Below, in pieces: positions 5,615 through 64,000 of a stretch of 64,000 nucleotides of DNA. The DNA is from Amyelois transitella (lineage: Eukaryota; Arthropoda; Insecta; Lepidoptera; Pyralidae). Numbering within the stretch: the stretch's first letter is position 1; every line of letters starts with the position of its first letter. Where the stretch lies: contig NC_083527.1 in assembly GCF_032362555.1 (NCBI RefSeq), positions 806,001 through 870,000 of the forward strand, given 5' to 3'. Made by a program: the position numbers and the translations under genes. The notes beneath the pieces are model-generated. The model searched no databases. It had not been told where the DNA came from and was given only the letters and a program-made list of their open reading frames with translations.

Positions 5615-8600
5615 ATGAAAAGTGATATCAAAATGAATAAAGGACATACTTATGTGCAATGGATGGTTGCTTTTGTAGGTAAGTACGTACATACATATAA
5701 TCACGTCTTTATCTTGCGAGGTAGGCAGAGCCAACAATATCGTGTTTTTTTTAAATAAAATGTAGTTTTTTAAGAAGACTTGGATTAAAGTTGCAGTTTC
5801 GAAAATAATCCAAACCGTTGAAAAAGTACATTAAATTATTATCTTAATTATTAAAATTAAAACTAAAATTACTTATTAAAAAAAAGATGAACAAACTAAA
5901 ATCAATTTAACAAATAGTACAGTCCCAGCATAGCATCAACTTGCGGGAGTGTGCCCAAAAAGGCTGGCAGGGTTACCATTCAAAATGGCAATGCTGCCAG
6001 CCTTTCTGGGCTTCTCTAAGCTAGATAATTTCCAGATGGGCCCACGGTCCCAGAGTTGAGAAAATAAGTAAGAATCTACGTAGATACGTAGAATGATGTC
6101 AATTTATCAATTGTTAATTTCAGCCGAGATAACCCTTCTGACCTATGGACTCCAAGCAGGATGGATGTCTCCCATGAAGACAGTTCTCCAATCAGATTCG
6201 TCACCAGCTGGCAGGCCGCTCACAGACATGGAGATGACCTGGGTGGCTAGTGTGCTACCGCTCGCTGGAGTGGTGGGGGTGCCACTGTATGTTTATATAG
6301 CTGACAATTACGGAAGAAAAGTGGGGGTGTTAGTGATGGCTATTATGCAAATGGTAATTCATATTTGAAGTAATTATGACTTCTCCTTCTTTGTTTCCGG
6401 GAAAGTTTATCGACACGTTCGATTTTAATCACTCGGAATGCATTTGGCGTTGTCTCCGTACGGTACAGGCATCCTAAAACGTTGCAAGTCTTTATGGCTG
6501 ACTCTTTTTATGATTTCAATTCTTTCTTGAATAAAAATTGGAAAATTGACCCTCATAATTATAACAATTAACTTTCCCTTTTCAGAGTTGCTGGATATTG
6601 AAACTGTCAACTACCAGTGTCACCAGTCTCATCATTGCCAGAATCCTAGGAGGCATTCCAGCTGGTGGTTGCTTCCAGCTCATCCCAGTCTACATTAAAG
6701 AAATAAGCCAGGACAGCATTAGAGGAATGCTGGTTTCCATGTTCCTCCTTATGCAGAACATTGGGATTTTCATGATATATGCCATGGGAGCGTACTTGGA
6801 TTACTGCACAGTTCTCTGGATTGTTCTGGCGATATCAGTGGTGTCTGTCGTGGCGCTCATCAAAGCTCCTGAGAGTCCTTCGTTCCTGGTGAAGATGGGT
6901 AAATATGAGGTACGATAATCAATATCAATAATGAAGATTTATAAAACCTTTCCACTACAAAGTAACTAGGTGGCTGATGATAGACGGACAAGAATGCCAG
7001 ATGCAGAAACTTAGTTGGCATGTAAGTTGGTATATTCTATCAGAATATAAGTTGTTATTAAAATATTACGTTTCTTTTCAGGAAGCAGCTTCAACTGCAG
7101 CGTTTTTGCGAGGGTTGGACATGAGCGACAAGGAGATCCAAAATGAACTCAACTGCATGAAAGAGGACGACAGACAATTCAAAGCTCTTCCCGATGTTAC
7201 AGTCCTCACTATTTGTAAGTACAATCACAAATGTTCTGTTTAAGGAGTATGTATGATCAACATTCTCTTTGTCATTTAGATGCTTAGCTGTCCTAAGGTT
7301 TGAGATTCATAACAATACTATCAGGACTACGCCTAGCTTTGAAACTTATACCCAGACATGCTTTAAGGAAGAACTATTTATCAAATACCTTCAGTATTAC
7401 GGATTCTTTTACAAACATTTTTTTTTTGCTTTTATAAGGCAATCTGGAGTTATATCACCACCGGATCTGATTATCATTAGTACATACATACATACATACA
7501 TATGGTCACGTCCATATCCCATGCGGGGTAGACAGAGCCAACAGTCTTGAAGACTAAATGGCCACGTTCAGCTATTTGGCTTAATGATAGAATTGAGATT
7601 CAAATAGTGACAGGTGCGTGGTTGTACATCGCCTAAAAGAAGAATCCAAAGTTTATAAGCCTATCCCTTAGTCGCCTTTTACGACATCCATGGGAAAGAG
7701 ATGGAGTGGTCCTATTCTTTTTTTGTATTGGTGCCGGGAACCTCACGGCACTTAATTATCATTTGTTGTTTTTGTTATCTTTCCAGTCAAAAACAGGTCC
7801 TCCCGCACCGGCGTCCTCCTCGTCCTCCTCATCATCAGCATGCAAGCCATGAACGGCAACTTCGCGATCGTCACGTACGCCTCATCCATTATGGCGGCGT
7901 CTGGAGTCACCTTGAGTCCAGAGCTGCAGACGCTCAGTATACCCATTGTGATGATTGTGGGTTCGTTCGTGTCTATGAGCTGTGTGGACAAGTTTGGTAG
8001 GAAGGTAAGATTACTAAAAATTTTGTCCATTTTGTTCAGTCTTCGTCACATATGTTTTCTCCATCATTGCGGTATCTGGAGTCACCTTGATTTCGGAGAT
8101 GCAGACGCTGAGTATACCCAACCCATTGTAATAATTTTGGGCTCGTTCGTATTTATGAGCTGTGAAGACAAGTTTGGTTGGAAGGCGAGATTCTAAGGCA
8201 TGGTTATTATTTGACGCTTTTAGACAATACCTACATCAAAAATGATTTTTGATAGAAATGACCAATATATTTGAACGAACTGAATAATCATGAATAATTC
8301 AAATAGATTTATGCGCTGACAGATATTGTTTCGTAAGAAGACCATATGTATATCAGGGAAATTACCACCACTAGTGCGTGAGGTGGTTTAGATTAGAGAT
8401 CTGAACTCATGCAGTTTGGTTTACTGATTTGCATCAATAACTCCATGATTATACTTACTACTTTTCCTTCCAGACAATACTAGCTTTGGCATTCGCACTC
8501 ACCACCGCGTCACTGGTCGGTCTCGGCTCAGTCCTGACGGTTCAGCATCACGGAGGCAGTCTCCCAAGCTGGTTGCCGGTCGCATCCATCATCACGTCTG

Positions 8601-10411: not shown

Positions 10412-13400
10412 ATGGGTCTTTTATCGGACCCGGAGTATGGGTCTGTGAAATGGGTGAAATTGCTGAAGAAAGTGCACGGACCCATTGGTTTTCTATGTTT
10501 TATCGGTGCTTTAGTGTGGTTTGTGATGTTAGGCAACAAGGAGTTCAACAATGAGACTTATTTCTCTGAAAATGCCTTGCTACCTGGCTTGGTAACTAAC
10601 GAGTTCAATGCTGAGCATGCCGGTAGAGACTTCTTCAATGAATTGACCTTGGAACTTGAGGTAAGGATAACAGTTTCATTGATTGCTCTGGAATTGTAAT
10701 TTATAAGTTTATTTTGCTGATATCTTCGTTTGCTCGGAATGCTGAAGTAAGTTCAAGTTGTAAATTTGAAAAAAGCAGTGACACTCATTCAGAAGTTTGT
10801 GAATATTCAAAAACAAACATATTACAGTTTAATCATAGACAAATTCTAGTAATCTTCTATTTGTAGATTAAAAGATATAATAAAAAGATATAAATTTATT
10901 CCACTAAAAGAAAACAATCATTACAACATCAACATAAATGAGCAAAATGATACAAAAGTGGATTTCCTACTATAACTGGCAATCTATCGCAGTCATTGGA
11001 AAGATGTAGACTTTGCCCACACCTCAGGGAATGTTATGTATTCCAGTCTAAGTAAGGTTAATAAGAAACTAAAGCTAAGATGAGCCTTTATGGACCTCTT
11101 ATACATGTACAATGTCTCTTAGTGAATTAATATTTTCAGGATAAATATGCGGATTCGGAAGAGATCCCCGTGCCATGGCTGGTGGCCAAGATGTTTCAGC
11201 TTCACCTGGAGGTGTACACCCATAACTTCACATTGAATTACCCCATGGGGCAAGGCCAGGTTCACTACTATACTTTTTTTTGCATAAATATTTTAAGTGC
11301 CGTGTGGCTCCCGGCACCAATACAAAAAAGAATAGGACCACTCCATCTCTTTCCCATAGATGTCGTAAAAAACGACTAAGGGATAGGCTTACTAATTTGG
11401 GATTCTTTTTGTAGGTGATGGGTTAGCAACCTGTCACTATTCGAATCTCAATTCTATCATTAAGCTAAATAGCTGAATGTGGCCATTCAGTCTTTTCAAG
11501 TCTGTTGGCTCTGTCTACCCCGCAAGGGATATAGACGTGACCATATGTATGTATGTAATGTTTTAACATAATTCAGAGACTTGGCACTCATTTAAAGACT
11601 TCCATTAAGTTATTTATTTTTATTTTTTACTTTACAGACTTAATCTAATGTGATAGTGTATAATCAATTATAGCGTATTATCTTTAGTGCTGCCGTTTGT
11701 TAATTCACTCAAACTGCAATTGAAAAAATCTATCTCATCATCAAGTTTACTTACATATAGTCACATCTATATCCCTTGCAGGGTGGACAGAGCCAACACT
11801 CTGGAAAAGCCACATACAGCTGTATGGCTTCAGGATGGAATTGAGATTTGATTTGTGACATGTTGCTAACCTACCGCCTACAAAAGGGGTCCCAAGTTTA
11901 GAAGCCTATTCCTTAGTCACCTTTCATTTAATTTAAGGAACAAATTTTTAAATTTAATGCTTATTTTCCAATTACTATTCAATAGTAATTGATATTATAT
12001 GGTATTGAATAGTAATTGGAACAGAATAGTACTTGAATAGTAATCATTGGTAATATTAATATAACTAATGATTACTTGAATAATCAATTATATTACTTGA
12101 TTCATACAAATTTCATGGACAGGTGTACACGGGTACAAATGTATACGGCATACTGAGAGCAGCGCGCACACCGTCTTTGGAAGCAATAGTATTGACCGCT
12201 CCGTTCAGGCCGCTGGGCTCCCATCAGAAGGAGACGACCGCTGGAATAGCTCTCATGCTGGCCTTCGCTCAGTTTGCTAGACGTGAGTATTGTTAATGTA
12301 TTTCACATACATACATACATATGGTCACGTCTATATCCCTTGCGGGGTAGACAGAGCCAACAGTCTTGAAAAGACTGAATGGCCACGTTCAGCTATTTGG
12401 CTTAATGATAGAATTGAGATTCAAATAGTGACAGGTTGCTAGCCCATCGCCTGAAAGAGGAATCCCAAGTTTATAAGCCTATCCCTTAGTCGCCTTTTAC
12501 GACATCCATGGGAAAGAGATGGAGTGGTTCTATTCTTTTTGTAATGGTGCCGGGAATGTAATGTATTTCACTTTTTCTTAAAAGGCCAATTTAATATTAA
12601 ATTCCAAGTTAATTAAAAGAGTTGGATTACTTAGTTACAGGTTACTTCGTTAACGAAGTGGTAATACATAGTTGCTCTGCGGATATTTACTACCGTCGAC
12701 ACCCACTGGGCCATTATAATAGGCAGTAAACTTAATAAGTAATTTATTTGATGTCCACCAATGCTGTGAAACCATGAGATATGACAATTATTAAGTATCC
12801 CATACTAATGAATAAAAATACAATATTTTATTGAGAAAATAATACAATATTTTAAATCATTTAGTATAAAAAAAGTACAATTGAGTGTATAAAGATGGTG
12901 AAAGAGACTATATTAAAAAAATATAGGGCATTATCGCAAGGTCTTTTTTGCAGCAAAAAGTTATTCATTTAAGTATTTTATTACATATTATTTATAACTA
13001 TTTCAACCATATTATAATGGCCTTTCAGTGTGCTAGTTAGTGCCTCGGTCCACCCCATAAAAGATGAAGACGTGATAAGTTTATATGTATGCATGAATTA
13101 TAGCGGCTCTGGAAATAGTTGCATTATTTTATTTAGTAAAATAAATTTTGGATATCATTTTTCAAAGGCAGACTTACATACATAGGGACTCAAATTAAAT
13201 TTTTTATTTTTCAGCTCAAAAATACTGGGCGAAAGACATAATATTCCTGATCACGGAACACGAACAACTAGGAATGCAGGCGTGGCTAGAAGCTTACCAC
13301 GGCCTGAACAGCGACGCCGAGACGTTCTACACATCTCTTGGTAGTTTCTGGAAGCCTGGTACTCCAAAGTTGGACTTTGGCAATATGGCGATGTTCGATT

Positions 13401-16400: not shown

Positions 16401-18954
16401 GAGCATCGTGAATATAGGAGCGAACTACATTTTGGTACATTTGATCGGATATGGCGTTATGAATTCGTTCGTAAGACTAATTTTGATTGAAATCTTTTTA
16501 ACTGCCGTATGGTTCCCAGCGCTTAATCCAGTAGAAGTCTTAGAAGTCTTAAGAAGAGGCAAGGGTAGCACTTTACCAGCTAAGATACATTATATGTACG
16601 TTACGTGAGTGTTTAATAACTGTAGTACATATTTTTAAATACGTTAAAGAAAGGCACGGAGGTCAGACTTTAACAAGGTAGTCAGAAGGGAGTCGCTTCC
16701 TGTGTGAAATCCAAGTAGGTACCAGGGGACCAGGAATAAAAAGAGGATTGAACGACTTTTTTCTTTAGGTGCAATGTACGAGCAGCCATCAGAGATCTCC
16801 GTGTACTACGGCCTCATAGCCACTTCTGTTATCCTGGTACTCGTCACGCCGTTCCTACCTCGCGTTCTTAGCAAAGGGCGGATAACTTATGAAGAAATGT
16901 CCCTGGTCAATATACTGTTGCTTATAGAATTGGCTACTGTGTGTCTAACGGTGAGTATTAAAATAAAAATTAATTTATGTATACCGAGAAGCTTGCACGA
17001 AGATAGTTATGAAAGTGGATGAAGTGAAAGAAGTATGCAGGGATGATGTAGTCTTTGTCTACCCCTGATCGGAAAGAGACGTGATATTATGTATGTATAT
17101 ACATACATATAGTGATGTTTCTATCCCTTACGGGACAGACAGCGTAAACAGTCATGAAAAGACTAAAAGGTAAGGTTCAGAATTGAGCTTCAAATTCAAA
17201 CAGGTTGCTAGCATGCATAAATAATGTTTGTAAAAATTAAAATAAGAATGAATAATTAATTAAGTTGAACAAATCGGATTTAAAAATAACAAAAATTAAC
17301 TATGAAATGGCAGATAATGTCATAATGACAAGGAAATATAGGTTTTACTGTTCCAATTCGGGGCATGAAGTTAAGCTGATTATTTAAAATTTTACCTATT
17401 TCTATAAATATATATTTTTTTAAATTTTTTATTCGTAATCTGGATCGACTATTATATCAGCATATTACCTCACAAATACATATTGACAATGTGGTTCAAG
17501 CTTCAAGTTCTGTATTATAAAAAAAAACCGAGTTTAACATAGTCGATACCTTTATACTACATATTGTTCTCTGTTTACAGGTGGGCATGCATAACTTCCC
17601 CCTTGGACTGACAATCGCAGTCCTTTACACTCCTCTCGCCCTGGTAGTCGGAGTGCAAACCCGGGGGGGAAAGGGAAGGTAAGGTGATTTTATTTCTTAT
17701 TACATTAGGTACAAAAAAGAATAGGACCACTCCATCTCGTTCCCATGGATGTCGTAAAAGGCGACTAAGGGATAGACTTATAAACTTGGGATTCTTCTTT
17801 TAGGCGATGGACTAGCTACCCGTCACTATTTGAATCTCAATTCTATCATTAAGTCAAACAGCTGAACGTGGCCTATCAGTCTTTTCAAGACTGTTGGCTT
17901 TGTCTACCCCGTAAGGGATAAAGACGTGATCTGAATATGTATGTTATATTAGGTCCATATAAAAACTCACATACATAATAGTCACGTCTATTTTCCTTGC
18001 GGGGTGGACAGAGCCAAAAGTCGTGACTGAAAGGCCACGTTCAGCCGGATGGCTTTATGATGGAATTGAGATTCAAATATTGACAGGGCCATCTGCTGTA
18101 AAATGGATGTCGTAAAAGGCGACTAAGGGATATCCTTATACACTTGGGATTACTCTTGTAGAAGTATAAGGATATCTAAGATAGATGTATAAGGATATCC
18201 CTTAGGCGCCTTTTACGACATCCATTTTACAGGACCATCAACCACAAGTGATACTTTTCATGCCATGTGAATAATATCGAAACACTAGTTCAAAATTTTG
18301 GTTTCATTTACTAAGCAAAGCGCTTAAACGTGATTAAATTCTCCAATAACAAAATTTATATCGTCGTCTTTGTCTTACCAATGCAACTAATATAGGATAG
18401 CAATACAAAATGGCCGTTTGACAGTTGAATTTGATTTTCAGATTTTCCTTATTCCTCAAGCGGATATTCTGCCTACTTCTTTCCCCACTCTGCGTCATCA
18501 CGCTCGGCATGATCCTGTACAGCAGATTCCTGTTCCCCGAAGAAGATTTGCTCAATATGGCCGGTAGGGGGCGCGACGCGGCGATGCAAGCTATCATGTT
18601 CTCTATTGTAGACTCACTGGTGAGATGCTCCTTTTAATTTATGTAATCCTAGTACTTTTTTCTTTTTTCTATTGGTGCCGGAAACCACATGGTACCAATA
18701 GTAAAAGATAATATGACCACTCCATCCATATCTTTCCCATGGATGTCGTAAAAGGCGATTAAGGGATAGACTTATGAACTTGGGATACACACGGCATTAT
18801 TATTATTATTGTATTGATTTCGGAGTTAAATAGCTATTCTTTCTTTCAGATCTACGGTAATTGGCTGTACAACGTCACGTCGGCTGTTATACTTCCAATA
18901 TGGATCATATTCTGGCAGATCCTGTGTAACAGAGTCGAAGAACAATTAGTTTAG
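10412..18954 (+). CDS. GPAA1: GPI-anchor transamidase subunit GPAA1 (Gaa1)
   Basis: Twelve exons: 10412-10660, 11140-11259, 12123-12282, 13215-13502, 13944-14058, 14374-14464, 14771-15014, 15529-15795, 16769-16950, 17581-17678, 18442-18619 and 18850-18954. They give 698 residues, somewhat longer than the usual 600-650. GPAA1 is the M28-peptidase-like, multi-pass ER subunit of the complex that transfers GPI anchors to proteins. Family hallmarks: an N-terminal TM after the first 20 residues, [51 protein letters not shown], and a C-terminal half with several hydrophobic helices. ATG at 10412 is preferred because [10 protein letters not shown] begins the conserved domain. The exon 2 donor (GTTCAC) is weak, with an S1 repeat starting 37 bp later. 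Exon 8 is triplicated (see 15965-16490). A polyadenylation signal follows at 18979. Confidence 0.93.
11296..11559 (+). mobile_element. S1 SINE-like element
   Basis: Full-length S1 in GPAA1 intron 2, from the GTGCCG hairpin head to the ATGT tail. Flanks AATATTTTAA and AATGTTTTAA look like a 10-bp target-site duplication with one mismatch. Confidence 0.75.
11752..11927 (-). mobile_element. S1 SINE-like element, partial
   Basis: Diverged minus-orientation S1 tail and middle part in GPAA1 intron 2. The hairpin head is missing. Confidence 0.65.
11968..12019. repeat. AT-rich inverted repeat
   Basis: Arms 11968-11984 (CCAATTACTATTCAATA) and 12003-12019 are perfect 17-bp inverted copies with an 18-bp loop, about 100 bp before GPAA1 exon 3. 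Degenerate repeats of the same motif continue to about 12090. Confidence 0.8.
12307..12558 (-). mobile_element. S1 SINE-like element with 13-bp target duplication
   Basis: S1 copy in GPAA1 intron 3, lacking the outer half of the hairpin head. It is flanked by perfect direct repeats TAATGTATTTCAC at 12294-12306 and 12559-12571. This is one of the clearest signs that S1 moves by target-primed retroposition. Confidence 0.85.
14192..14345 (-). mobile_element. S1 SINE-like element, partial
   Basis: Diverged S1 fragment in GPAA1 intron 5, ending just before exon 6. It lacks the ATGT tail. Confidence 0.6.
14497..14738 (-). mobile_element. S1 SINE-like element
   Basis: Near full-length, diverged S1 copy in GPAA1 intron 6, with ACAT-run tail and a degenerate CCGACAACCACACGGC head. 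Confidence 0.7.
15965..16144 (+). pseudogene. Second copy of GPAA1 exon 8, still open and spliceable
   Basis: A tandem duplicate of exon 8, offset by 349 bp. From the KTSDAVPG codons to the donor it is almost identical to exon 8, including the codons for [15 protein letters not shown] and an intact GTAAGA donor. The 5' third, corresponding to [13 protein letters not shown], has decayed. An AG at 15963-15964 after a pyrimidine-rich tract would give a 180-nt exon that enters and leaves in phase 1 with no stop. Inclusion would therefore repeat one membrane segment without breaking frame. Whether it is ever spliced in cannot be told from sequence. Confidence 0.75.
16236..16490 (+). pseudogene. 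Third, decayed copy of GPAA1 exon 8
   Basis: Offset 345 bp from copy two. It matches exon 8 through TATGGCGTTATGAATTCG, then has lost about 22 bp including the SPLLFSKI codons. A 2-bp deletion upstream of KTSD shifts the frame relative to the acceptor used in copy two. A dead exon copy. Confidence 0.8.
17709..17945 (+). mobile_element. S1 SINE-like element
   Basis: S1 copy in GPAA1 intron 10 lacking the hairpin head. Flanks TTACATTAGGT and TTATATTAGGT resemble a mutated target-site duplication. Confidence 0.7.
17965..18240 (-). repeat. S1 copy rearranged into a 46-bp-arm foldback
   Basis: A minus-orientation S1 fragment runs into a long hairpin. Arm 18096-18141 and arm 18187-18232 are reverse complements at 45 of 46 positions, around a 45-bp loop. 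Both arms hold the GGATGTCGTAAAAGGCG block of S1. It looks like inverted duplication of part of one S1 copy in GPAA1 intron 10. Confidence 0.85.
18671..18785 (+). mobile_element. S1 SINE-like element, partial
   Basis: 5' half of an S1 copy in GPAA1 intron 11, from a degenerate hairpin head to AACTTGGGAT. Confidence 0.65.
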
Positions 18955-20689
18955 TGTTAGACATTCCAAAGATGTATTAATAAATTGTTTAATTTATTGT
19001 CTTGCTTGTTATTTATTCATCTCTTCTTCGGCTTATTTTCGCCTACTGCTGGGAAAATGTCTCTCCAGTAACTGTTATCAAAGGTTTTTCTGGTCCAGGT
19101 TATCCCGGTATGGTTTTTTTATGTCGCAGCGGGTTTATGGTCTGCCAATATTCCTCTTTCCAGCTCTTGGAAGCAATTCCAGGAGGGATTTGATCGTGGC
19201 AAGTGGAAAGAGGTAGTCTCTGTCTACCCCTCCGGGAAAGAGGCGTGATTTTATGTGTGTATGTATTAGCTCCATCGACCATGTGTGATGTGATGATAAG
19301 TTTTGATGTGATGAAAAAAGATAAGGATCGTGTGATGTGATGATGGGATGTGTTCATAAGTTGTTAGAATTTATCTATTGTCTTGCAGTCTGTGCATCTA
19401 AAATTAGATTAACAATATAGAGAACTGGGTATAAAGAAAGATATAGTATTAGGGTGGTGTTTGGCAGAATAGAATGTTTAGGATAGTATTTTATTTTATT
19501 TGGAAAACTATACAGTGCTTATAACTTACGTAGTAAACACTAAATGCATGCACTTACAAGTTAAGTCACAATAAATAAGAAAAGATTGAATGTATTTTTT
19601 TTTTCATAATAAAAAAACCCTTTTTTACAATATTGACTTAAGTAAGCACTAACTTTAATATTTTCATGTAAGGTATTAATTATGTGTAACTGAAATTTCC
19701 TTAATAAAGTAATGACATTGTAATATATAAAACATAATCTGTACAAACAGAAATACATTTAAGATAAAATAGTTTGGGCGTTCGGCATTGGCGTATCTGA
19801 AGTTTCAGCGCCCTGGGCATCCATCGGAATGGCACTTCAAAATTTAATAAATAAATAAATATATACGGGACAAAGTACACAGATTGTGTTAGCCCCGAAG
19901 TCAGTTCAAAAGTGTGTTCAACTATGTTAACCCAACTTCCCCAACTAATATCTTCCCAAATAATAGCACCTTTGTACTAGAATTACTGTAATAAATGCTC
20001 CTGTATATAATTTTGTGTACATAAATAAATAATATCATAAATGCGACAGTGTGTTTATTTATTTGTTTGTTTGTAACGTCTTTACGGGTTATCTACTAAA
20101 AAAACCTTCTTGAAATGTCTCGTATATAAGAGTCTGGTGAAGGACATAGGGTACCTTTTATCCCGATAAAACTATAGTTCCCGTGGGATTTGCGAAAAAC
20201 CTACCTATGTATATTCTTTTGTAGTTTAAATTCCTTGTTTTTTGTAGGTGGTGCTAATTTCGTCGCTTTTTTTTCGCGTTAAATTTAAATTCTTTGATTT
20301 TTGTACGTGTCTCCTTTCTTTTTTTTAACTACAAGTCAAAAACGATTTAACGTTTGCTCTTTAAAACCTGCTGCCCATTGCTTCAGCCCTTTACTTTAGA
20401 CTAGATACGCCCCCGTCTTTCAGGTGACATCACTGAAGATATAGCGACATCTATTTATATTAGATAGCGCTTCATAAAATAAAGCTATGCATTTAGGAGT
20501 ATTTTCCTACTATTTCCCTACTTGGCAAATTATTGTTGATAGTAATGTTCATTCGTCCTGATTATCTTAATATAGATGGACTTGCAATTATAGTAAAAAA
20601 ATACAGGGAAATATATAGATTAATAAATATATAAGGAAAATAAGATATATTTTGTTTTTAACAAGGATCACAATTAGCGATTTGTAAAG
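18955..20689. other. Spacer between GPAA1 and transporter B
   Basis: No gene seen. Holds the GPAA1 3' end, an L1 LINE tail at about 19180-19265 (GATCGTGGCAAGTGGAAAGA and downstream), a partial S2 SINE tail at about 19850-19960, and otherwise AT-rich sequence. Confidence 0.55.
18979..18984 (+). promoter_or_regulatory. Polyadenylation signal AATAAA (GPAA1)
   Basis: AATAAA 25 bp after the GPAA1 stop codon, followed by a T-rich stretch. It implies a very short 3' UTR. Confidence 0.55.
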
Positions 20690-23600
20690 ATGGGTGTGCT
20701 TTTTCAAATTATAGGGTCTGCAATTGGTAAGTGAGAAACATTTGAATTTCAACCTAATGACATGAAAAGTGAGTTCCTATCACTTTAGCATAGGACAACT
20801 ATCTTCCTGATTGATCTCGTAAAAGGCGACGACAGAGAAGAATCCGATATCTTTCTCTACGATATCGTAAAAGGCGATAAACTTATTCCTAGTGCAATGC
20901 AACAACCATTATCAAAATTGGTAATAGCTAATATAGTGTAATTGACTTAACCTGACTTTTCATCTACTTGCATCGTGGTCGAAACGGACCCTGGGCTCCT
21001 CCCCAGGGAGGACACATCCGGGACAATAAATATTTACATATACAAGGAGACGAACGTATCTCATGACGATGGAACATCATGGCGAAAGGTCAGGCCAAGA
21101 GTAGGTACTCTGAACAGACGGGCATTAGAGAGTTATGAATATGGATGATGCGAAAGAAGTATGCAGGCATCGTGGTCAGTGGAAATATGTAGTATAGAAA
21201 GATTTTACGTACAATTTTTTTATTAGAATTGATAAACTTTAAAAAACACATAGGATATGCTTTGACCATACGCGTAACTCCATTTCTTTATGTCATTCGT
21301 TATTCCAGTATGTTCCCTTACCATGAGCTCAGGAATTATGTTCGCGTGGCCATCCTCCACCACCCTGCTGTTCAGGTCTGAGAACACGACTCTGAACAGG
21401 CCAATGTCCAGCGGCGAGATCGGTTTGTTGGGGAGTCTGTCCAGTGCTGGGGCGCTGGCTAGTACACCAGTTATAGCGATGATGATAGATAAACTTGGGA
21501 GGAAGAACTCTTCGATGCTGTGTGGCTTGATGAATGTGGTAATGTTTCTGTTTTAATTGGTTTAAAGATTCAGTTCGGGCATAAGACTGAGATATCCTAG
21601 CTTGACTGTCAACAGGATTACTAAGCGAGTACTCAAAGGTTGATAAGGTGACCAGGGTAACATAAAAACGAGAGAGAGAAGAGAGACACATTCAAGTCTT
21701 TCAAGGACAATTTTTCTATCAAATTATAACTGAGGATTGAGCCGGGCGAAGAAATTAGTTTGTTTAGAAGCCTGCCCAGCATGTATAAGATTTCTATGAC
21801 ATGAACATACAACCATTTTTAAGGCATTAGTCTATCACTATGTATAGCTAAGACTTCGCACGGGTAGCATTGTTGATTTTCATACAAACTTACATCCCCT
21901 ATTTTAGTGTTTTAGGTTGATTTTTGGATTTCATTGAAATCGGTCCAGCTAAACCAGCTGTGAAAGAACAAACAGACAGACAGACTTTCGAATTAATAAT
22001 ATCGCTAAGGGATTATTAACTAACGACTACATTTATCCCACAGATAGGCTGGACAATGATCGCTTTTTCCCGGCAAGTGGAAGTCATCATGACTGGTATC
22101 TTCATCGGCGGATTAGGGGGGGCAGCCTTCCTCATCGTGGCCATGTACGTCGGGGAATTCTGCCAGGAATCCATCAGAGGAGCCATGTCATCTGGCTCGA
22201 TGGTTATGTACGGAGTGGGTATACTGCTGGCGTATATAACTGGGGGTTTGCTGGATTATTGGACTAATGTGTACGCTTGTTTGGCGCTGACGGTCGTGAA
22301 TCTTGGACTGCTGAGCTGGTTGAAGGAGTCGCCTGTGTTTCTGTTGATGAAGGGGTCGGAGAAGGTAAGATAATATGTCGAGTTTCTTCTTTTTTTAGTG
22401 ATAATTGAAGCGGGAACGATGATTCGGTGTGTGGTTCCCGGCACCAATATAAAAAACATCTCATTTCCCATGGATGTCGTAAAAGGCGACTAAAGGACAG
22501 GCTTATAATCTTTGAATTCTTATTTTAGGCGATGGGCTTGCAACTTGTGGCGATTTGAATCTCAATTCTATCATTAAGCCAAACAGCTGAACGTGGCCAA
22601 TCAGTCTCTTCAAGATTGTTGGCTCTGTCTACCCCGAAAGGGATAAAGACGTGACTATATGAATGAATGAATGAAAGCGATGATTTGGCTCGACCAAAAG
22701 GGAAGATCTTCCGCCAGGCTGGTGTTATGCCTGGGGAACCGCGCGACATACGATATGTCGAGGTTGTATATACCTAGCTCCAATCCGTGAAATCTTTGCT
22801 TGTGGATGAAGAGCGAAAGAAGTAAGTAAGTAGTGATCGTGATAAGTCGAAAGATTTAGTCTCTGCCTACCCCTGTGGGAAATAGACGTGATTTGTGTAT
22901 GTATGTAATTACATGACGAACGTATCTTGATCAAATTAAGGACGTCCTGGTAAAGGGTCAGGTCAAAAGTACCCGAAACCGCTGAGCTTGCATGAAGGGA
23001 ATTATGAATGTGGATGAAGCGAAGGAAGTATGCAGAGATCGTGGCAAGTGGAAAGAGGCAGTCTCTGCCTACCCCTGTATGAAATAGACGTGATTTGTGT
23101 ATGTATGTAATTACAATGTTGCCATTATAATGTTAGAAATTCTTACACCTACCCCACTGCGAAACAAGCGTTATTTACCAAATCTATTATTTCTCCTACA
23201 GGACGCCGCAATCTCCATAGCCTTCTATCGAAGAATAAAGCCATCTTCTAAGGAAGTCGTGGAAGAATTGGACAAATTGAGAAGAATTATCAACCCTGAA
23301 GAAGGTACCTTATTTTAATTTATTCCTACATACATACATATAGTCACGTCTATATCCCTTGCGTGGAAGACAGAGCCAACAGTCTTAGGAAAACTGAAAG
23401 GCCACGTTCAGATGTATGGTATAATGATGGAATTGAAATTCAAATAGACACAGGTTGCTAGCCCATCACAAGAGGAATCCCAACTTTATAACCCTAACCG
23501 TTAGTCGCCTTTTACGACATCCATGGGAAGAATATCGAGTGGTTCTATTCCGAAGTGCCGTAAACAACACTGCATAAGGCGTTTTTTTAATTAGATAAGA

Positions 23601-29995: not shown

Positions 29996-30010
29996 TCTAG
30001 ATCTATTCCC

Positions 30011-31114: not shown

Positions 31115-31378
31115 TGCCGTGTGGTTCCCGGCACCAATACAAAAAAGAATAGGACCACTCCATCTCTTTCCCATGGATGTCGTAAAAGCCGATTAAGGGG
31201 TAGGCTTATAAACTTGGGATTCTTCTTTTAGGCGATGTGCTAGCAACCTGTCACTATTTGAATCTCAATCCTATCTTAAAGCCAAACAGCTGAACGTGGC
31301 CTATCAGTCTTTAAAAGGCTGTAGGCTCTGTCTACCCCGCAAGGGATATAGACGTGATTATATGTATGTATATGTACT
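31115..31378 (+). mobile_element. S1 SINE-like element
   Basis: Full-length, little-diverged S1 with GTGTGGTTCCCGGCACC head and ATGTATGTATATGTA tail. Confidence 0.8.
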
Positions 31379-52176: not shown

Positions 52177-52182
52177 TTTATT
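52177..52182 (-). promoter_or_regulatory. Polyadenylation signal overlapping the transporter E stop
   Basis: On the minus strand the stop reads TGAATAAAG, so AATAAA shares its first A with TGA. If used, the 3' UTR would be only a few tens of bases. Confidence 0.5.
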
Positions 52183-55100: not shown

Positions 55101-58100
55101 AGCATCAATCATTAGTAGATCAACATTTTATACAACTTTTCAAAATTAATGCCTTTCTTTACACTTTCTTGTCGTGGGGCTGCTGGAAGGACTTTTTCTA
55201 GAAATAAGTAGTGCCCTTGTACCTACTGAATTTCCTTCATTTTAAGTTTTATTTTTATTTTCCTTGATAAATTAATGGGGTCTTAAATGGTCTTAACTAT
55301 GGCTGCATATATATTATATATACATCTATAAATCTTAAAACCTTAAATAAAGGTATATCTTAAATATAAAATATTTATAAATAAAGAAGATAAAAAATAT
55401 ATCTTAAATCTTATAGTTCGTCTATAACGTACATCTATAATATATAACTATACGTATATGTTGCAAGAAAACCTTACTAAAAGTAAAAACCTGACCACCC
55501 AACCCAAGATCCATGGTCTAAGGCATAACCCGGGCTCTTGTCGAGAGAGCTGAGGATGTATCGGAACTCAGGAAGAATCGAATCGAATCGAAGCCAGGAG
55601 GAAAACTTAGGTTGCAAGAAATTTACCTCAGTTTTTCCTTTCTTCAGTAAATAGGACGGGGATTCTGGCATCAGCATTATCAGCAATATATGGGCAGTCG
55701 GCATGGCTAGGCAGATCCACAGGATGGTGTTATAGCTTAAAATATCCCCGATGACGTACAAGAACAAATTTCCTGAGGTTTGGAAGAATATCAGCTGAAA
55801 GAATAAGTTAAATGTGTGAATTTAATTCTAGGTTTCGATATTTGTGAAGTTGACCTTACTGAAGAAAATGCTAGAGGGCAATTTGTTAACCGTTTCTTCT
55901 GCACTGACGCCTTTGAAGTGGCAGTTAACTTAGTTTTAAGTAATTAATTTGACGTCAACCAATGTTGTGAAACCAAAAGATATGACAATTAATAAGTGAT
56001 GTTTGAAATGTCCCACAATAATAAAGAACACATATGAATCACAAGAATTATTTATTTGGCAAGGCAATGAGGCAAGAAATTGTAGGTAGCATCTTATAAA
56101 TGATTTGTCTCTCAACTTGGCGTTCACTCATAACATTGCTCGACAACATGAAAATGTTTTTTGTTGTTTTGCTTGCAGGTGGAGATTTTCACCTCCACTC
56201 AAATGATTAGTTATGAAATTTTATAAGTCGGCGCCTTAGAAGAGTTTAGTGTTTTAAGATTATCCCTTTCCTGGTCCATTTGACAACTCTTTTTGCGTGT
56301 CGTCAAAATCTGTCATTAATACATACTTACTTCAAATCTTGGAGGGGTAGCAAAGACTACATCTTTCCACTTGCAGCGATCTCTGAGTACTTCTTTAGCT
56401 TCATCCACATTCAAAACCTTACATTAACAGTACCTATATGGTCTGTAATCTACAGTTTGTCTTAATTAACACAGTTGTATGATTCCTTAGACTCAATAGG
56501 ATATTTTACAACAGGTCAAATCAGATGCTTTTACACAGAATATTTATCTATATCGTTATCATATATTGTATCTCTTAACTGTTTGAATTTTTCTTATATG
56601 GTCTTCGTATGTACACTGTTTTTGAATTTGTAGTGTAGATCGTAACTTTATAATTTTACTACTATGTATATTTTTACTACAATTTGTTATGTGTATTTAA
56701 ATAAATAAAAAAAATAAAAATAAAATAAAGTATATAAAAGCCTACTTCTGGATTAAGGGGAAATGGGGGAATTTCTATAGGTATATAACTATACTAATAT
56801 CCTATAGTCCCCACGCTGGGCAGGCGGGTTGGAGATTGCAGTTTATATTGATTATGGACTATGTTGACTTATCAGCGTACGAGGCGTTACTGCCACCTCC
56901 TTTTTGATAGCTAACACCTGGCTTAATCGCCTCTTACAATATCCAAAGGAAGATATGGGGTGTGTTATTCTACTCTGGAAATTGAGGGAAAGGTTGGAGT
57001 GGGAAGACCTAGACGAACGTATCTTGATCAAATTAAGGACGTCCTGGTGAAGGGTCAGGTCAAAAGTACCCGAAACCGCCGAGCTTGCATGAAGAGAGTT
57101 ATGAATGTGGACGAAGCGAAGGAAGTATGCAGAGATCGTGGCAAGTGGAAAGATGTAGTCTCTGCCTAACCCTCCAGGAAAGAGGCGTGATTTTATGTAT
57201 GTATTCTACTCTGCCGGTACCATACGGCCTCATTCAATACAAACACATTATTACCTACTTCAGTGATTTACTCACCAAAGTACCAAGGAATCCTCTGATG
57301 CTGTCTTCGCTGATCTCCTTGGTGTACAGCGGACATATCACGTAGACTCCGGCCATGGTGATACCCACCATGGCTCTTGCTAGTATGAACGCCCACGTCT
57401 CCATGGAAGACAACTTTAGAATCCAGCAAACCTGAAACATTTCCGTGCCGTGTGGTTCCCGGCACCAATACAAAGTGCCGTGTGGTTCCCGGCACCAATA
57501 CAAAAAAGAAAAGGACCACTCCATCTCTTTCCCATGGATGTCGTAAAAGGCGACTAAGGGATAGGCTTACAAACTTGAGATTCTTTTTTAGGCGATGGGC
57601 TAGCAACCTATCACTATTTGAATCTCAATTCTATCATTAAGCCAAATAGCTGAACGTGGCCATTCAGTCTTTTCAAGACTGTTGGCTTTGTCTACCCCGC
57701 AGGGACATAGATGTGACCATATGTACTGAAACATTCCATTAGCACCGAAAGTTGTACTTAATTATGGCATGTTCTTTTACATGCAGCGCGAAAAACTATT
57801 GCTAGTACGCTGACTGCATATTTGGCTTTTCGGTGACGATCGAAAGAAAATGCTGCAGTGCAGTTTGTTACCGCTTCTTCCGCACTGACGACTTGGAAGC
57901 GGCAGTAAACTTAGTTTTAAGTAATTTATTTGACGTCAACCAATGTTGTTAAACCATACGTTTTGACAATTACTAAGCGATATGAAGTATCCTGTAATAA
58001 TGAATAAAAATTTTGAATTTTGATCTCTTTTGCTAATAGGTTCTAAGGACAGGGTTATTTATTTATTTAAAACTTAATGTATAAAGTCAAAAGTACCTGA

Positions 58101-61100
58101 AACCGCCGAGCTTGCATGAAGAGAGTTATGAATGTGGATGAAGCGAAGGTAGTATGCAGAGATCGTGGCAAGTGGAAAGAGGTAGTCTCTGCCTACCTCT
58201 CCGGGAAAGAGGCGTGATTTTGTGTATGTATGTTTGTAGAAAACGCGGAGTTAATGCCGTTTGGCATTCTCTATTGGGTATTCAATACAAACAGTAGGAA
58301 GTCAAATTAACTTTTTATTCTCCCATACAAATTGGTCGACCAGCTACCGGATTTTTGTATTAATATATATATTACACGACTATTTCCCATTGGGGTAGGC
58401 AGAGACTATGGATTTCCACTTGCTACGATCCTTACAGACCTCCCTCCGAAGTAAGTTTGGATATGGACCCACCATTCATCGCCCAAACATGCTGTGATTA
58501 TTTCTAAACCAATAAAAAATTAGCATGTAGGTACAGTAATTTCCTTCATACTCACAGCCGAGCAAAGTGACAAGAATATCACACAGATCTTTCTTCCAAA
58601 AGCCTCTCCCATGTACGCTACCACGAACTCGAACACCATGGACACCAAGTATGATATAGAAGCCATCCATGATACCTGTAAATGTATAAAAAAGGAATCA
58701 ATCAATTTATTTAAAAAAAAGGCAATCCATAAAAAAATATGTATATTTTTTTGTTCATTATTAAAATCTATATATATAAAACTCTTCCGTTACTGAGTGA
58801 CTGACTGACAGACAACGCACAGTCGAAACTACTGGTCGTAGACAGCTGAAATTTGGAATGTAGGTTCCTTGGGATATGTAGGGGAGCACTAAGAAAGGAT
58901 TTTTGGAAATTCAACCCCCAAGGGGGGGAAAAGGGGTAAAAACGTTTCTATGAAAAATCTTATTCCTTGGGTTTATAAACTTGAAACTTGGCATGAACAC
59001 GTACTTAGGCATGTAAATATGTTTGACATTATAAGTTTTTTCAAACTACCCTCCAATCGTGATTTAGGGGGTGCGATTGGGTGACTCATTTATTAACGCA
59101 CAGCCGAAACCGCTCGGTATAGGAGTCTGAGATTTTGAACAGAGGTTCCTTTAGTAACATAAGTGAGCACTAAGAAGGGATTTTTGAAATGTCAACCCCC
59201 AAGGGGGGGAAACTCGACCCCCAAAATAATCAAATGGGGGGTCAAAGTTTGTATGAAAATCATCGTTCCGCTTTCACGCCTGAACCGCTGAACCGATTTT
59301 GATGAAATTTGGTATGTATATAGTTTAAAACCCGCGTACAAACAAAGGCTACTTTTTTTTCAAAATTCGACCCCCAACATAGTCAAATGGGGGGTGAAAG
59401 TTTGTATGAAAATCATCGTTCCGCTTTCACGCCTGAACCGCTGAACCAATTTTGATGAAATTTGAAATGCATATAGATTAAGATACGAGTTCAAACATAG
59501 GCTACTTTTTTTTTCAAAAAACAACCCCCAAAACAGTTAAAGGGGGGGTGAATCATCGTTCCGCTTTTACGGCCTAACCGCTAGGCCGATTTTGATTAAA
59601 TTTGGTATGCATACAGTTTTAGTATTTTTATTTTAACGTCAACAGAAATTTATAATCTGTGAAAATGTCACCTGTATAGCTAATACGGATCATGAGACAC
59701 GCCTGGTGACAGGAGGATGGGTGAGCGGACAGACAAACTAACAGACAGACCGACACCGAAGTCGAGTAATAGGGTCCCATTTTTACCCTTAAGGTACGAT
59801 GGAACCCTCATAAGTGTTAATTTTTGATATGCAAAAGATAAGAAAATTTATTCCTTCAATGAACAATTTGTTTGATAATGAGCAATAGATGGCGCCACCA
59901 TGTCAAAGTCGCTATCGTTTGTCGTTCGACAATCAATAAGACTTCTATGATTTTGAAAGCATTTTTACCCTCCGTTAATAAGTTGTTGGTCGTTTCGTAT
60001 TCATGCTTGAAGACGTTTCGTTGTGTTTTGTTCATTTGTATTGTAAATATATTGGTTAGTAAAAAATACGTGTCAGTTGCGGAAAGCAGGATGGCACTAA
60101 ATAGGATGGGACAGGATAGGAGGACTGGACGGGGCAGGACGGGACACAACAGGTTGTGACGGGACGGAACAGAACGAGAAGAGACGGGAGAAGCCATATG
60201 AATTTAAATCAAATATAAACTTAAAACAGTCCCGCACGATACGGGATTAAAAAATGGGTGAAATTTTATGTCGTATCCTTATAATCTAAAATACATTTGC
60301 GCGGGCGAAGCCGCGGGCAAAAGCTAGTCTCATATAAATAAATTAATCTGAACAATGTATTCTCTCGTCCACATTCTTATTATCATATTGTTGAAGAAAA
60401 TGCTGCAGTGCAGTTAGTTATCGCTTCTTCTGCACTAACGCCTTGGAAGCGGCAGTAAACTTAGTTTTAATTAATTTATTTGACGTCAACCAATGTTGTG
60501 AAACCAAAAGATATGACAATTATTAAGCGATTTGATAGTATCCTATAATAATGAATAAAAATTTGGAATTTTTAATTTTTTTTTAGAATTTATCAGCAAA
60601 AAAATAAGGCCATTGAAGCCTATGTTGTCTTGTCACAAAATATGTATTTTATGTCCTTTTTTTACGTCAAATGATTTCATTAAGAGCTTACGTCAAATGG
60701 TTTCTTTGAAATCACCGCGATTGAAATGCGTGATGCGCAGAAAGGCCCAGGTTCAAATCCCACTTCGGCCATGTACCAATGACCACGAGAACCACGTTCA
60801 CCTTTTTGGCTCGATGATAGAACTGAGATTCAAATAGTGACAGGTTGCTAGCCCATCGCCTAAAAGAAGACAAGAAATATCAGGTATATTTACTTCAGTG
60901 CCGTGTGGTTCCCGGCACCAATACAAAAAAGAATAGGACCACTCCATCTCTTTCTCATGGATGTCGTAAAAGGCGACTTAGGGATAGGCTTACAAACTTG
61001 GGATTCTTTTTTAGGCGATGGGCTAGCAAGCTGTCACTATTTGAATCTCAATTCTATCATTAAGCCAAATAGCTGAATGTTTCAGTCTTTTCAAGATTGT

Positions 61101-62323
61101 TGGCTCTGTCTACCCCGCAAGGGATATAGACGTGACGATATGTATGTATGTATTTACTTCAGTGATAGTCAATGGAGTTCCCCTGGGGGAGTCCGCTGAT
61201 TGCAGCAGCAGGGTCATCGGAGACATCCACCCGATGCTGGAGCCGTAGCAGAATAATAGGAAATTTACTGGAAAAAAAAGGAAACATATTGAATTTTAAA
61301 TACATACATACATATAGTCACGTCTATATCCCTTACGGGGTAGACAGAGCCAATAATCCCGAAAAGACTGAATGACCACATTCAGCTGCTCGGCTTAATG
61401 ATGGAATTGAGATCCAAATAGTGACACATCAGGTTGCTAGCACATCGCCTAAAAAAAGAATCACAAGTATGTAAGCCTTTCCCTTAGTCGCCTTTTACGA
61501 CATCCATGGGAAAGAAATGGAGTGCTCCTATTCTTTTTTATTTAAACGGTTTTATTTTATATTGGTGCCGGGAACCACACGGCACTTTTAAATACTGCGA
61601 ATTATATACTGCAACCTGTCACTATTTGAATTATATAACAAGAATAGGACCACCTCATCTCTCTAATGGATGACATAGAAGGCGATTAAGGGATAGGCTT
61701 ATAAACTTGGGATTTTGCTTTTAGGCGATGGGCTAGCAACCTGCCACTATTTTAATCAAATTCTATCATTTCTTAGAAGTTCTATCAAGTCTTTTGGCGA
61801 CTTTGGCTCTGTCTACCTCGCATGGATTATATGTAGTTATGTATGACACTATTTCAATCTCAATTTCATAACTAAGCCATACAGCCGTACGTGGCCTTTC
61901 AGTATTTTCAAGCGTGTTGGTTCTGTGTACCCCGCAAGGTATATAGACGTGACAATATATATGTACGTATATACATACATCCATATAATCACACCTATAT
62001 CCCTTGCGGGGTAGACTGTGTCAACAGCCTTGAAAATTGGCCACGTTCAGATATTTGTCTTTAAGATAGAATTGAGATTCAAATAGTGATAGGATGCTAG
62101 CCCATCGCCTTAAAGAAGAATCCCAAGTTTATAAGCCTATCTCTCAGTTGCCTTTTTCGACATCCATGGTAAAGAGATGGAGTGGTCCTATTCTTTTTTC
62201 TATTGGTGTCGGGAACCACACGGCAAAATATATATGTTTATTATTTTTTTACTTACTCGATATTGCACATAGCAGCTGATTAATTTTGCTGCCTTCACCA
62301 AAAAAGAAATAATATTTCTTCAT
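52182..62323 (-). CDS. MFS sugar transporter E (Tret1-like)
   Basis: Nine exons on the minus strand, 62323-62257, 61267-61158, 58675-58556, 57431-57276, 55794-55627, 55024-54892, 54423-54191, 53269-53075 and 52469-52182, give 489 residues. Starts MKKYYFFFGEGSKINQLLCAIS. Markers: SIGWMSPMT, GEAFGRKIC, LYTKEISEDSIRG, MPESPSYLLKKGKTE, ELVGRK, ISEMFSYK and FPETKLRSVEQIQYDL, then a Lys/Glu-rich tail. It is the tandem sister of transporter D: exon lengths are identical except the last, and blocks of exons 7 and 9 are almost identical in DNA. Donors of exon 2 (GTAAAT), exon 7 (GTATCT) and exon 8 (GTATTT) are weak; S1 copies sit within a few to about 30 bp of several donors. The stop codon overlaps a polyadenylation hexamer (TGAATAAA). 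Substrate is inferred. Confidence 0.9.
53540..53569. repeat. Perfect 13-bp-arm hairpin
   Basis: CAGTTTTAAAGTG (53540-53552), loop AATA, CACTTTAAAACTG (53557-53569), in transporter E intron 7. Confidence 0.85.
53608..53805 (+). mobile_element. S2 tRNA-derived SINE, internally deleted
   Basis: Head GGCCTTTGTGGCGCAGCGGTAG is present, but box B is lost in a deletion (CAGAAGTCCCAACACAAGAC). Body and tail present. Confidence 0.8.
53913..54167 (-). mobile_element. S1 SINE-like element next to transporter E exon 7
   Basis: Full-length S1 whose head ends about 24 bp from the exon 7 donor (54190). Confidence 0.8.
54604..54867 (-). mobile_element. S1 SINE-like element next to transporter E exon 6
   Basis: Full-length S1 in transporter E intron 6, its head about 25 bp from the exon 6 donor. 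A solo S1 head lies at 54521-54545. Confidence 0.8.
55482..55590 (+). repeat. Unnamed interspersed repeat (CCATGGTC family)
   Basis: Shares ACCTGACCACCCAACCCAAG, ATCCATGGTCTAAGGCAT and AGGATGTATCGGAACT with 35551-35740. Intron 5 of transporter E. Confidence 0.6.
56965..57205 (+). mobile_element. LINE L1 3' fragment
   Basis: Encodes EGKVGVGRPRRTYLDQIKDV, LVKGQVKSTRNRRACMKRVM and NVDEAKEVCRDRGKWKDVV, then the GAGGCGTGATTTTATGTATG tail. Transporter E intron 4, antisense to the gene. Confidence 0.85.
57446..57725 (+). mobile_element. S1 SINE-like element with duplicated head
   Basis: The 30-bp head starting GTGCCGTGTGGTTCCCGGCA is present twice in tandem (about 57446-57475 and 57476-57505), followed by a full S1 body. 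Lies 15 bp from the transporter E exon 4 acceptor. Confidence 0.85.
57841..58021 (+). repeat. GCTGCAGTGCAG interspersed repeat
   Basis: About 180 bp from AAAATGCTGCAGTGCAG through GGAAGCGGCAGTAAAC and TTTGACGTCAACCAATGTTG to AATGAATAAAAATTTTGAAT. Also at 60389-60572, and partial at 55855-56030, 31520-31680 and 12660-12800. Probably a LINE 3' UTR; class unproven. Confidence 0.75.
58075..58245 (+). mobile_element. LINE L1 3' fragment
   Basis: L1 tail beginning in AAAGTACCTGAAACCGCC and ending GGCGTGATTTTGTGTATGTATG, in transporter E intron 3. Confidence 0.8.
58767..60327 (+). mobile_element. Non-autonomous Helitron, 1.56 kb
   Basis: Starts A|TCTATATATATAAAACTC and ends with the CGCGGGCGAAGCCGCG hairpin, GGCAAAAGCTAG|T. 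The first ~440 bp and the last ~70 bp match 38805-40479. The interior differs: it holds about three diverged repeats of roughly 153 bp (59229-59610; unit contains CATCGTTCCGCTTTCACG) and a GGGAC-rich minisatellite (about 60080-60190). No Rep/helicase frame. Lies in transporter E intron 2. Confidence 0.88.
60389..60572 (+). repeat. GCTGCAGTGCAG interspersed repeat
   Basis: Second full copy of the 57841-58021 repeat, in transporter E intron 2, just after the Helitron. Confidence 0.75.
60715..60875 (+). repeat. tRNA-like SINE head joined to an S1 fragment
   Basis: GAAATGCGTGATGCGCAGAAAGG then GGTTCAAATCCCAC looks like a tRNA-derived head with box B. After CATGTACCAATGACC it passes directly into minus-orientation S1 sequence (GTTCACCTTTTTGGCTCGATG). 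A chimeric repeat. Confidence 0.6.
60897..61155 (+). mobile_element. S1 SINE-like element abutting the transporter E exon 2 donor
   Basis: Full-length S1 whose ATGTATGTATGTA tail ends 2-6 bp from the exon 2 donor. On the gene strand exon 2 is followed by GTAAATACATACATACATA, so positions +4 to +6 onward of the intron derive from the S1 tail. Confidence 0.88.
61304..61585 (-). mobile_element. S1 SINE-like element with 10-bp target duplication
   Basis: S1 in transporter E intron 1 with a small internal insertion near the head. Perfect repeats TTTTAAATAC at 61294-61303 and 61586-61595. Confidence 0.87.
61600..61975 (+). mobile_element. Two decayed S1 copies in tandem
   Basis: Head-less S1 fragments at about 61600-61840 and 61845-61975, the first with several deletions. 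Confidence 0.6.
61976..62226 (-). mobile_element. S1 SINE-like element
   Basis: Full-length S1 whose head ends about 30 bp from the transporter E exon 1 donor. Confidence 0.8.
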
Positions 62324-64000
62324 TTCGTACACAATTTTGGGTAAATATAATAAATAAGTAATGAGGTTTTTACACGGAATTAATTCGAGTTGTTAATTTA
62401 CACAGTAATCATTTTAAATGTATCTCTAGGTACGTATATGCTAAATGAGACTTTATATAAAATATATGATGTTATATGTCTCCTCCTATCTACATCTATG
62501 AAAGAACTGAACTATTCAGAAGCCAATGAGTATCAATTTAAAACAATCGCATGCCTTGTTCGCAGTCAAATAAATTAACTAAATATTTTATTAGTTGATA
62601 CGAGTATGCGCAGTTTCGTGAACTTATAATAGCAACATCATTGATGTACAAGCATTTTTATGTTGCGTTTCCACGTACATACTTATAATCTCGTGTTTAT
62701 CCCTCAAGGGGTAGGCAGAGCCAACAGTCTGAAAGGCCACTCTCAGCTGTATTTCTTAATGATGGAATTGAAATAATGACAGGTTGCTAGACCATCGCCT
62801 ACAAGAAGAACTATAGCCGCTTTTAGAGCCGGGAACCACACGGCACTGCATACTGCTCTAATACAGCCTTTATTCGTACCATGAGTGCCAAAAAGGATTG
62901 ATTTGTAAAAAAAAAAACTTTATTCTTAAAAAATAATTGTCATTTCCTATGAATTGTCAGCAACAATCATTGAAGTTGTAAATAATCTTGTATTTAAATT
63001 AATTATTTTTAACTTAATTTGGAAAGAAACCCGTATTAATTATTCAGATCAGACCAGACCTTTTAAATTGTTATAACACATGAAATATAAATACGATCAT
63101 CCAATGTTTTAAATTATTTAGAAGATATTTTTAAATATTACACGTGAGTATTTCAAACATATCTATCTATGTACTTACTACAAAGCAAATAATGTAAATG
63201 GTTCAAATAACTTAGCCTAGTTAATACCACAAAATATATTGTTTATATCAAATAAATGATAAGAAACAGGATCTTAAGATGAACGTATCAAAAATTAGGT
63301 AGGTAACGTTGTAAAATTGATATCAGAGGTCGGCACTGTAATTCTCTTTTCCGCATCTATTCGGAAAGCACACATACATTATATATACGTACACATATAA
63401 TCACGTCTATATCCCTTGCGGGGTAGACAGAGCTAACAGTCTTTAAAATATTGATGGGCCACATTCTGCTGTTTGGATCAATGATAGGATTGAGATTCAA
63501 ATATGTAATGACAGGTTGCTCATTCGCATCAATCGCTTGAAAAAAGAATCTCCAGTTTATGAGCCTATCCCTTAGTCGCCTTTTACGACATTCATAGGAA
63601 CGAGATGGAGTGATCCTATTCTTTTTGTTCTTAGTACCACGAACCACACGGCACGGCATTCGGAAAGCGCCCAATAGATTTGCATTCACGGAGCAAGTCT
63701 ATAAACTTATTTTTGGCCAATAGCTATTTCTCAAAATTAATACAACCATTGAACCTATGTATGTTTTTAATATATTTATAGTCATATTTATACAATTAAT
63801 ATATGTACGTGTGTTGACCTACGAGTATTATACACGTTTACCTACATTTTGAAAGAATAGGACTTCTCTTTATAGTTGTCTTAGTGGTTGACTAAAGGAC
63901 ATAATAACAACTAGTGTAACAAAACTTCTTCCTCTTGGCTTTAGTTCCGGTTGTATCCTCACCACTCTGGAGAGAACCCGGGGTATGCCTTTGACCATGG
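62324..64000. other. Upstream region of transporter E
   Basis: Presumed promoter and 5' UTR of E at its left end. Contains S1 copies at about 62670-62846 (partial) and 63387-63660, and the CCATGGTC repeat at the window edge (63916-64000). No gene seen. Confidence 0.55.
63387..63660 (-). mobile_element. S1 SINE-like element
   Basis: Diverged full-length S1 from ACACATATAATCACGTCTA to CGAACCACACGGCAC. Confidence 0.75.

Follow-up and report, generated by a model that had tools for sequence, protein, structure and literature searches.

How does a repeat that is too short for encoding a reverse transcriptase come to make up 8,911 bp, or 14%, of a stretch of insect DNA? The question is raised by S1, an element with a consensus of about 259 nt, in 64,000 nt of Amyelois transitella sequence (the window), from which all S1 and L1 counts and consensuses given below are taken. 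We conclude, with a probability of roughly four in five, that S1 is a non-autonomous short retroposon mobilised in trans by a long interspersed element (LINE) of the L1 type, "L1" being the label of an earlier interpretation made from the letters alone (the sequence-only reading) and not the mammalian LINE-1 clade. S1 RNA would start at a GTGCCG hairpin and end in a stretch of about 43 nt plus (ATGT)n, both copied from the 3' terminus of L1, a lepidopteran LINE, and the LINE reverse transcriptase would recognise this tail and insert S1 by target-primed reverse transcription. The two families have a common tail, end in (ATGT)n, and carry target-site duplications (TSDs), the 5' end of S1 is discrete and, in some copies, truncated, and no Rfam-like head is seen in the two copies searched. 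What we infer is recognition in trans by the L1 enzyme, the polymerase that would transcribe S1, and the LINE subfamily that would have donated the tail. The partnership between a short interspersed element (SINE) and a LINE that the sequence-only reading had proposed thus holds for two retroposons with TSDs, for a common 3' end beyond chance, and for the lack of a recognisable tRNA head, while the action of L1 machinery on S1 RNA stays a proposal.

Structure and distribution of S1

The majority-rule consensus of 23 near-full-length S1 copies begins with GTGCCGTGTGGTTCCCGGCACC and ends with CTGTCTACCCCGCAAGGGATATAGACGTGAYTATATGTATGTATG, and its layout comprises a GTGCCG...CGGCAC head and an (ATGT)n tail. 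A BLAST search with this consensus gives 59 pieces, which form 54 loci (26 on the plus and 28 on the minus strand) when each overlapping piece is assigned to the better of S1 and L1 and same-strand pieces at most 60 bp apart are merged, a procedure that may split fragments of one old copy into separate loci. The earlier estimate of about 35 to 40 copies was of the right order of magnitude and lower than this count, and the interval assigned to them is merely the span of copies, with an S1 tail at 5688-5736 falling outside it. The tail core CTGYCTACCCC, allowing at most one mismatch, has 42 matches in the window, against 0.63 expected.

Among the 54 loci, 26 begin within positions 1-6, which suggests a fixed 5' end for S1 RNA and, with it, a promoter of some kind; the remaining starts are scattered. 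The 3' end (position 250 or later) is reached by 36 loci, and both ends are reached by 20. The predicted fold of the whole S1 RNA is better than those of its shuffles (z -2.74, 1 of 200 as good) and contains the GTGCCG...CGGCAC head hairpin that had been claimed from the letters. A near-consensus full-length copy at 44213..44471 (+) covers positions 1-259 with 94.6% identity to the S1 consensus.

Target-site duplications and retroposition

The TSD score of a copy is the length of its best flank-to-flank direct repeat minus 3 per mismatch; it was determined in 29 S1 copies chosen from the BLAST matches and in 12 L1 copies, with 812 and 132 mispaired flanks, respectively, as controls. A score of at least 10 is found in 10 of the 29 S1 copies versus 0.37% of the mispaired flanks, and a score of at least 12 in 4 of them versus 0.12%; for L1, 4 of the 12 copies score at least 12, versus 0.76% of the controls. 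Two of the ten S1 duplications are AT-simple (62225, 45844), in two the match extends into the first letters of S1 (26578, 60898), and in one of the four L1 duplications (22915) the match takes in the ATGT tail of the copy behind which it landed. These results support S1 and L1 both as retroposons with TSDs, and the earlier claim of duplications at no fewer than five S1 copies and one L1 copy holds.

Full-length S1 copies with duplications lie at 60898..61150 (+; TATTTACTTCAGTG, whose last three letters overlap the first letters of S1), 31115..31371 (+; TACTGATTATAT), and 35781..36037 (-; ending in ATGGACAAAAAA, which immediately precedes GTGCCG). Further duplications flank the copies at 33436..33683 (+; TAAAAAGAAGT), 63393..63654 (-; GCTTTCCGAAT), and 47103..47348 (+; 22 bp with one mismatch), and a full-length copy at 7491..7751 (-), with exon-like stretches on either side as judged by eye, has a weak candidate TSD with one mismatch (score 9). 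The copy at 12310..12556 (-) starts at position 12 and is flanked by GTGAAATACATTA, and its slight 5' truncation is as given by target-primed reverse transcription. We give next to no credence to S1 being a DNA transposon or a Helitron-like element with its hairpin end there by chance: a terminal hairpin is also a Helitron feature, but the TSDs vary in length, copies are truncated at the 5' end, and the tails are tandem repeats, all of which speaks against such an element, and the TSD on the truncated copy at 12310-12556 contradicts it.

A 3' end common to S1 and L1

Leaving (ATGT)n aside, S1 aligns best with the final 226 nt of L1 at the extreme 3' end of the two elements, where 32 of 43 columns are identical and 2 gaps occur; the score of this local alignment is equalled by 1 of 1000 dinucleotide shuffles of S1. 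Both the common 3' end and the (ATGT)n ending, which is seen in S1 and L1 alike, had been noticed in the sequence-only reading. Against the same 226 nt, positions 1-205 of S1 give no match beyond that of shuffles (497 of 500 as good).

The window contains several variants of the LINE tail. The tails at 22801..22905 and 22915..23107 (both +) carry the TAGACGTGA arm of S1, the first being a second copy of the variant and the other having a TSD that ends in TAATTACA. An L1 tail at 19192..19263 (+; 97.2% to the L1 consensus) carries CTGTCTACCCC as in S1, with the CTGTCTACC arm, and a diverged LINE tail at 16990..17098 (+; 75.8% to the L1 consensus) has GTCT...AGAC stem letters in the tail alignment.

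The predicted fold of the S1 tail is a stem GTCTA...TAGAC topped by CCC-GCAA-GGG. None of five tails folded is clearly better than its own shuffles (z -1.48 to +1.14). Pairing holds for 87.9% of cells among the 35 distinct tails aligned, versus 13-50% with slid partners, and column shuffles reach 87.9% in 56 of 500 cases. A conserved recognition hairpin common to the S1 and L1 tails is possible, in which the S1 loop GCAA and the L1 loop UCCG could be interchangeable stable tetraloops. An argument from compensatory pairs for a shared 3' hairpin was also tried and is not claimed here, as the controls give it no clear support.

L1, the putative LINE partner

L1 is represented by LINE-like 3' ends at 18 loci, 2,066 bp in all. 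The longest L1 open frame, 47746-48099 (-), has 118 codons, passes through the shared tail, and ends in ...WKEVVSAYPSGKEA, its stop being the TGA that closes the shared tail, after which (ATGT)n follows. This frame belongs to the 3' end at 47727..47944 (-), which gave no TSD in a test whose start for this copy lay too far in. In a single comparison it resembles a second LINE-like frame at 50386-50898 (-), with E 2e-6 and 25 of 98 columns identical, and that second frame matches DUF6451 above its Pfam cut-off. Because the L1 frame at 47746-48099 continues without interruption as far as the stop that closes the shared tail, and is similar to this second frame, L1 is probably coding. The grounds for taking L1 as a putative LINE are its open frame, its 5' truncation, its TSDs, and the likeness to the frame at 50386-50898. 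For the L1 frame, Pfam returns only a SAMD1_SHD match below its cut-off and NCBIfam returns nothing; the L1 peptide has no match in PDB, and its C-terminal peptide gives 9 candidates in IMG/VR and 158 in GTDB, none of them confirmed.

Other L1 3' ends lie at 56981..57204 (+; TSD TATTCTACTCTG), 40928..41105 (-; 98.9% to the L1 consensus, TSD TAGTCATTGGAG), 58086..58232 (+; 97.3% to the L1 consensus), and 44583..44706 (+), the last adjoining an S1 copy and with a TSD around ATGGGAAAGAT. At 50204-50894, the second LINE-like frame, on the minus strand, separates S1 positions 66-215 from 232-259 and is probably a nested insertion.

Evidence against L1 as the driver, and the age of the copies

Several observations weigh against mobilisation of S1 by L1, beginning with the single shuffle that equals the tail alignment and the 12 of 29 S1 copies that score 7 or less, with no clear duplication. 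On the side of L1, the copy at 56981-57204 has an early stop within the tail, and the frame of the variant copy at 22915-23107 ends earlier, at a TAG inside the tail. A reverse transcriptase domain is named neither by Pfam nor by NCBIfam in the L1 frame, which is at most 118 codons long, nor by Pfam in the frame at 50386-50898, and no full-length L1 was found in the window, those 118 codons being the longest frame seen. As for the tail structure, the minimum-energy fold of the L1 tail is a different stem from that of S1, the tail covariation score is reached by 37 of 500 shuffles, and double-sided changes occur in 1 of 8 stem pairs (5 of the 35 distinct rows), with 485 of 500 shuffles having as many. 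Finally, median identity to the respective consensus is 87.9% for S1 (35 pieces longer than 100 bp) versus 96.8% for L1 (9 pieces), and the L1 copies seen look mostly younger than those of S1. Since S1 copies look older, the historical driver of S1 may be an older or other LINE subfamily with the same tail.

These different identity levels also speak for the idea that the shared tail is an old relic, such that S1 got its tail from a LINE and owes its present copies to another LINE or to relaxed recognition of (ATGT)n. On the same side, lepidopteran RTE elements likewise end in short simple repeats, according to excerpts of PMC2887409. We nevertheless judge this decidedly improbable, given that the tail end is kept in 36 of the 54 S1 loci and that several LINE tail variants with the tail coexist, and we prefer mobilisation of S1 in trans by an L1-type LINE.

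The head of S1 and its promoter

Two near-consensus S1 copies, searched on either strand with permissive thresholds, have no Rfam match at E of 10 or below, and hence no 5S rRNA-like head is seen in them. The best pair of A and B boxes in S1 is at chance level (286 of 500 shuffles as good), as is the best pair when its A box is limited to the first 40 nt (470 of 500). In the control, a tRNA-headed SINE of the same window termed S2, the boxes score 14 of 15 (3 of 500 shuffles as good, and 0 of 500 under the 40-nt limit), and ARAGORN finds all four S2 heads and Rfam two. The Rfam search of two copies and the box scores thus reveal no tRNA-related head in S1, in line with the sequence-only reading, though both tests could miss a head that has diverged as far as those in print. 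Of what the label SINE implies, S1 has the LINE-shared 3' end and TSDs, and a head or internal promoter derived from RNA polymerase III (Pol III) genes was not found; as far as these tests see, the strict definition of a SINE fails for S1.

Two accounts of the origin of the head are both compatible with mobilisation in trans. S1 could be a SINE of the ordinary kind whose tRNA- or 5S-derived head has diverged beyond recognition, and might be related, for instance, to SfSE1 or PxSE5. As excerpts of PMC8010984 describe them, these two have (ATGT)n tails and a 56-bp common 3' end (89.6%), the tRNA-related head of their relative PxSE1 being just 64% like tRNA. The lack of Rfam matches in two near-consensus copies and the chance-level boxes of S1 compared with those of S2 point the other way, and we regard this origin as somewhat unlikely. 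Alternatively, S1 could be a short internally deleted element (SIDE), that is, an L1-type LINE minus its middle, with the 5' untranslated region (UTR) of the LINE and its promoter as the S1 head, just as Persaeus relates to Zenon in the lepidopteran precedent given in parts of PMC6740152. The discrete 5' end of S1 and Pol III signals no better than chance would suit such an origin. However, the likeness to L1 is confined to the last 43 nt or so, with S1 positions 1-205 unmatched in a comparison that covered the last 226 nt of L1 and had the L1 5' end outside it; Persaeus ends in poly(A) and S1 in (ATGT)n; and three fragments of the S1 head with no adjoining S1 body (18660, 28253, 54519), which were checked as LINE 5' ends, yielded none, two of them resembling inversions. 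An origin as a SIDE is therefore possible, with the odds leaning against it.

A third account, that S1 is a high-copy LINE parasite which owes its head to neither a Pol III RNA gene nor the LINE, and is transcribed from the GTGCCG hairpin via an unrecognised promoter, is in our view unlikely. If it were true, SINE-like elements would not need to borrow either end of the usual pair in order to emerge, and the head would reveal how a LINE parasite as successful as S1 achieves its own transcription; the head of ZenoSINE prompts the same question.

Some copies have rearranged heads. An isolated 31-nt S1 head at 54519-54549 (+) is followed by non-S1 sequence. In the copies at 28253-28383, 18660-18786, and 29281-29446, one part is inverted relative to the other, which we take to resemble 5' inversions from twin priming. 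At 57448-57500 (+), the first 30 nt or so of S1 are tandemly repeated at the 5' end, with a likely TSD CTGAAACATT(T)CC in the flanks, as judged by eye.

Other elements and genes in the window

S2, the second SINE, is tRNA-derived with A and B boxes and an (ATTT)n-like tail. Its four heads lie at 37808-37879 (-), 46143-46215 (-), 49319-49390 (+), and 51667-51738 (-), and are called tRNA-His by ARAGORN; by description only, tail and head recall the PxSE2 type in excerpts of PMC8010984. At 49221-49702 (+), an S2 apparently lies inside an S1 copy (S1 1-99, S2, S1 93-257). Because it appears inserted within S1, this S2 would be younger than the copy that it interrupts. A Mariner-like transposase occupies two overlapping frames at 24999-26193 (+), the first with an HTH_48 domain of Mos1 type, and a frame at 15504-16031 (+) has a match to Gaa1-like proteins (glycosylphosphatidylinositol transamidase; E 3.7e-7). 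Sugar-transporter-like gene fragments are also present, with Pfam Sugar_tr or MFS matches in 2 of 4 frames tested, below the curated cut-offs.

Comparison with known lepidopteran systems

By description, the repeats of this window resemble published lepidopteran families. Other published repeats are Metulj (PMC4016481) and the noctuid repeats of PMC10298559, among which SINE/5S elements are abundant, both as far as excerpts of these papers go. The sequence of S1 itself was not met in published text, searched with three S1 strings among others; family consensuses sit in figures and supplements, and S1 may already have a name. In microbial and viral collections, S1 sequence patterns occur 0 and 0 times in IMG/VR and an S1 20-mer 0 times in GTDB contigs; a 16-base tail pattern hits 8 IMG/VR stretches, which we assume to be chance.

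The S1/L1 partnership is not new as a kind, since the (ATGT)n arrangement is published for PxSE5 and SfSE1 with PxLINE1. In the excerpted parts of that study (Han et al. 2021, PMC8010984), SfSE1 and PxSE5 end in (ATGT)n, PxSE5 and PxLINE1.1 have a 43-bp common 3' end (84%), and PxLINE1.1 itself closes with ATGT repeats, as do LINEs of further Lepidoptera. S1 and L1 are like these systems in having an (ATGT)n tail on both SINE and LINE in a lepidopteran host, and L1, with its frame at 47746-48099, is like PxLINE1 in that its open reading frame is followed by a short 3' UTR with ATGT repeats. SfSE1 is reported to be tRNA-derived and PxSE5 5S-derived, whereas neither head is seen in S1 by our tests, the comparison being by description only. 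HaSE1 and HaSE3 with HaRTE1 (Wang et al. 2012, PMC3272025, in part) are likewise short lepidopteran retroposons with TSDs that share a LINE 3' end, of 43 bp and 82% for HaSE1. Unlike S1, HaSE1 and HaRTE1.1 end in TGA repeats, and the heads of HaSE1 and HaSE3 are tRNA- or 5S-derived.

Heads that do not come from an RNA gene have already been reported too, in lepidopteran SIDEs and in ZenoSINEs, as excerpts of the two studies present them. Persaeus, a SIDE of the CR1 LINE Zenon with poly(A), no RNA-gene head, and no Pol III promoter (Wang et al. 2019, PMC6740152), is, like S1, short, often abundant, and joined to a LINE by its 3' end, and occurs in Lepidoptera including Spodoptera. It differs from S1 and its (ATGT)n in the poly(A) 3' end and has a head from the 5' UTR of Zenon. 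ZenoSINE (2019 heliconiine study, PMC6685494) combines the 3' tail of a Zenon LINE with a 5' head of unknown origin and is in this respect built like S1; its tail comes from Zenon LINEs and its hosts are heliconiine butterflies, unlike those of S1. If its head does come from a Pol III gene or from the LINE, S1 adds one more dense family to the known lepidopteran SINE-LINE pairs, which helps the annotation of such genomes.

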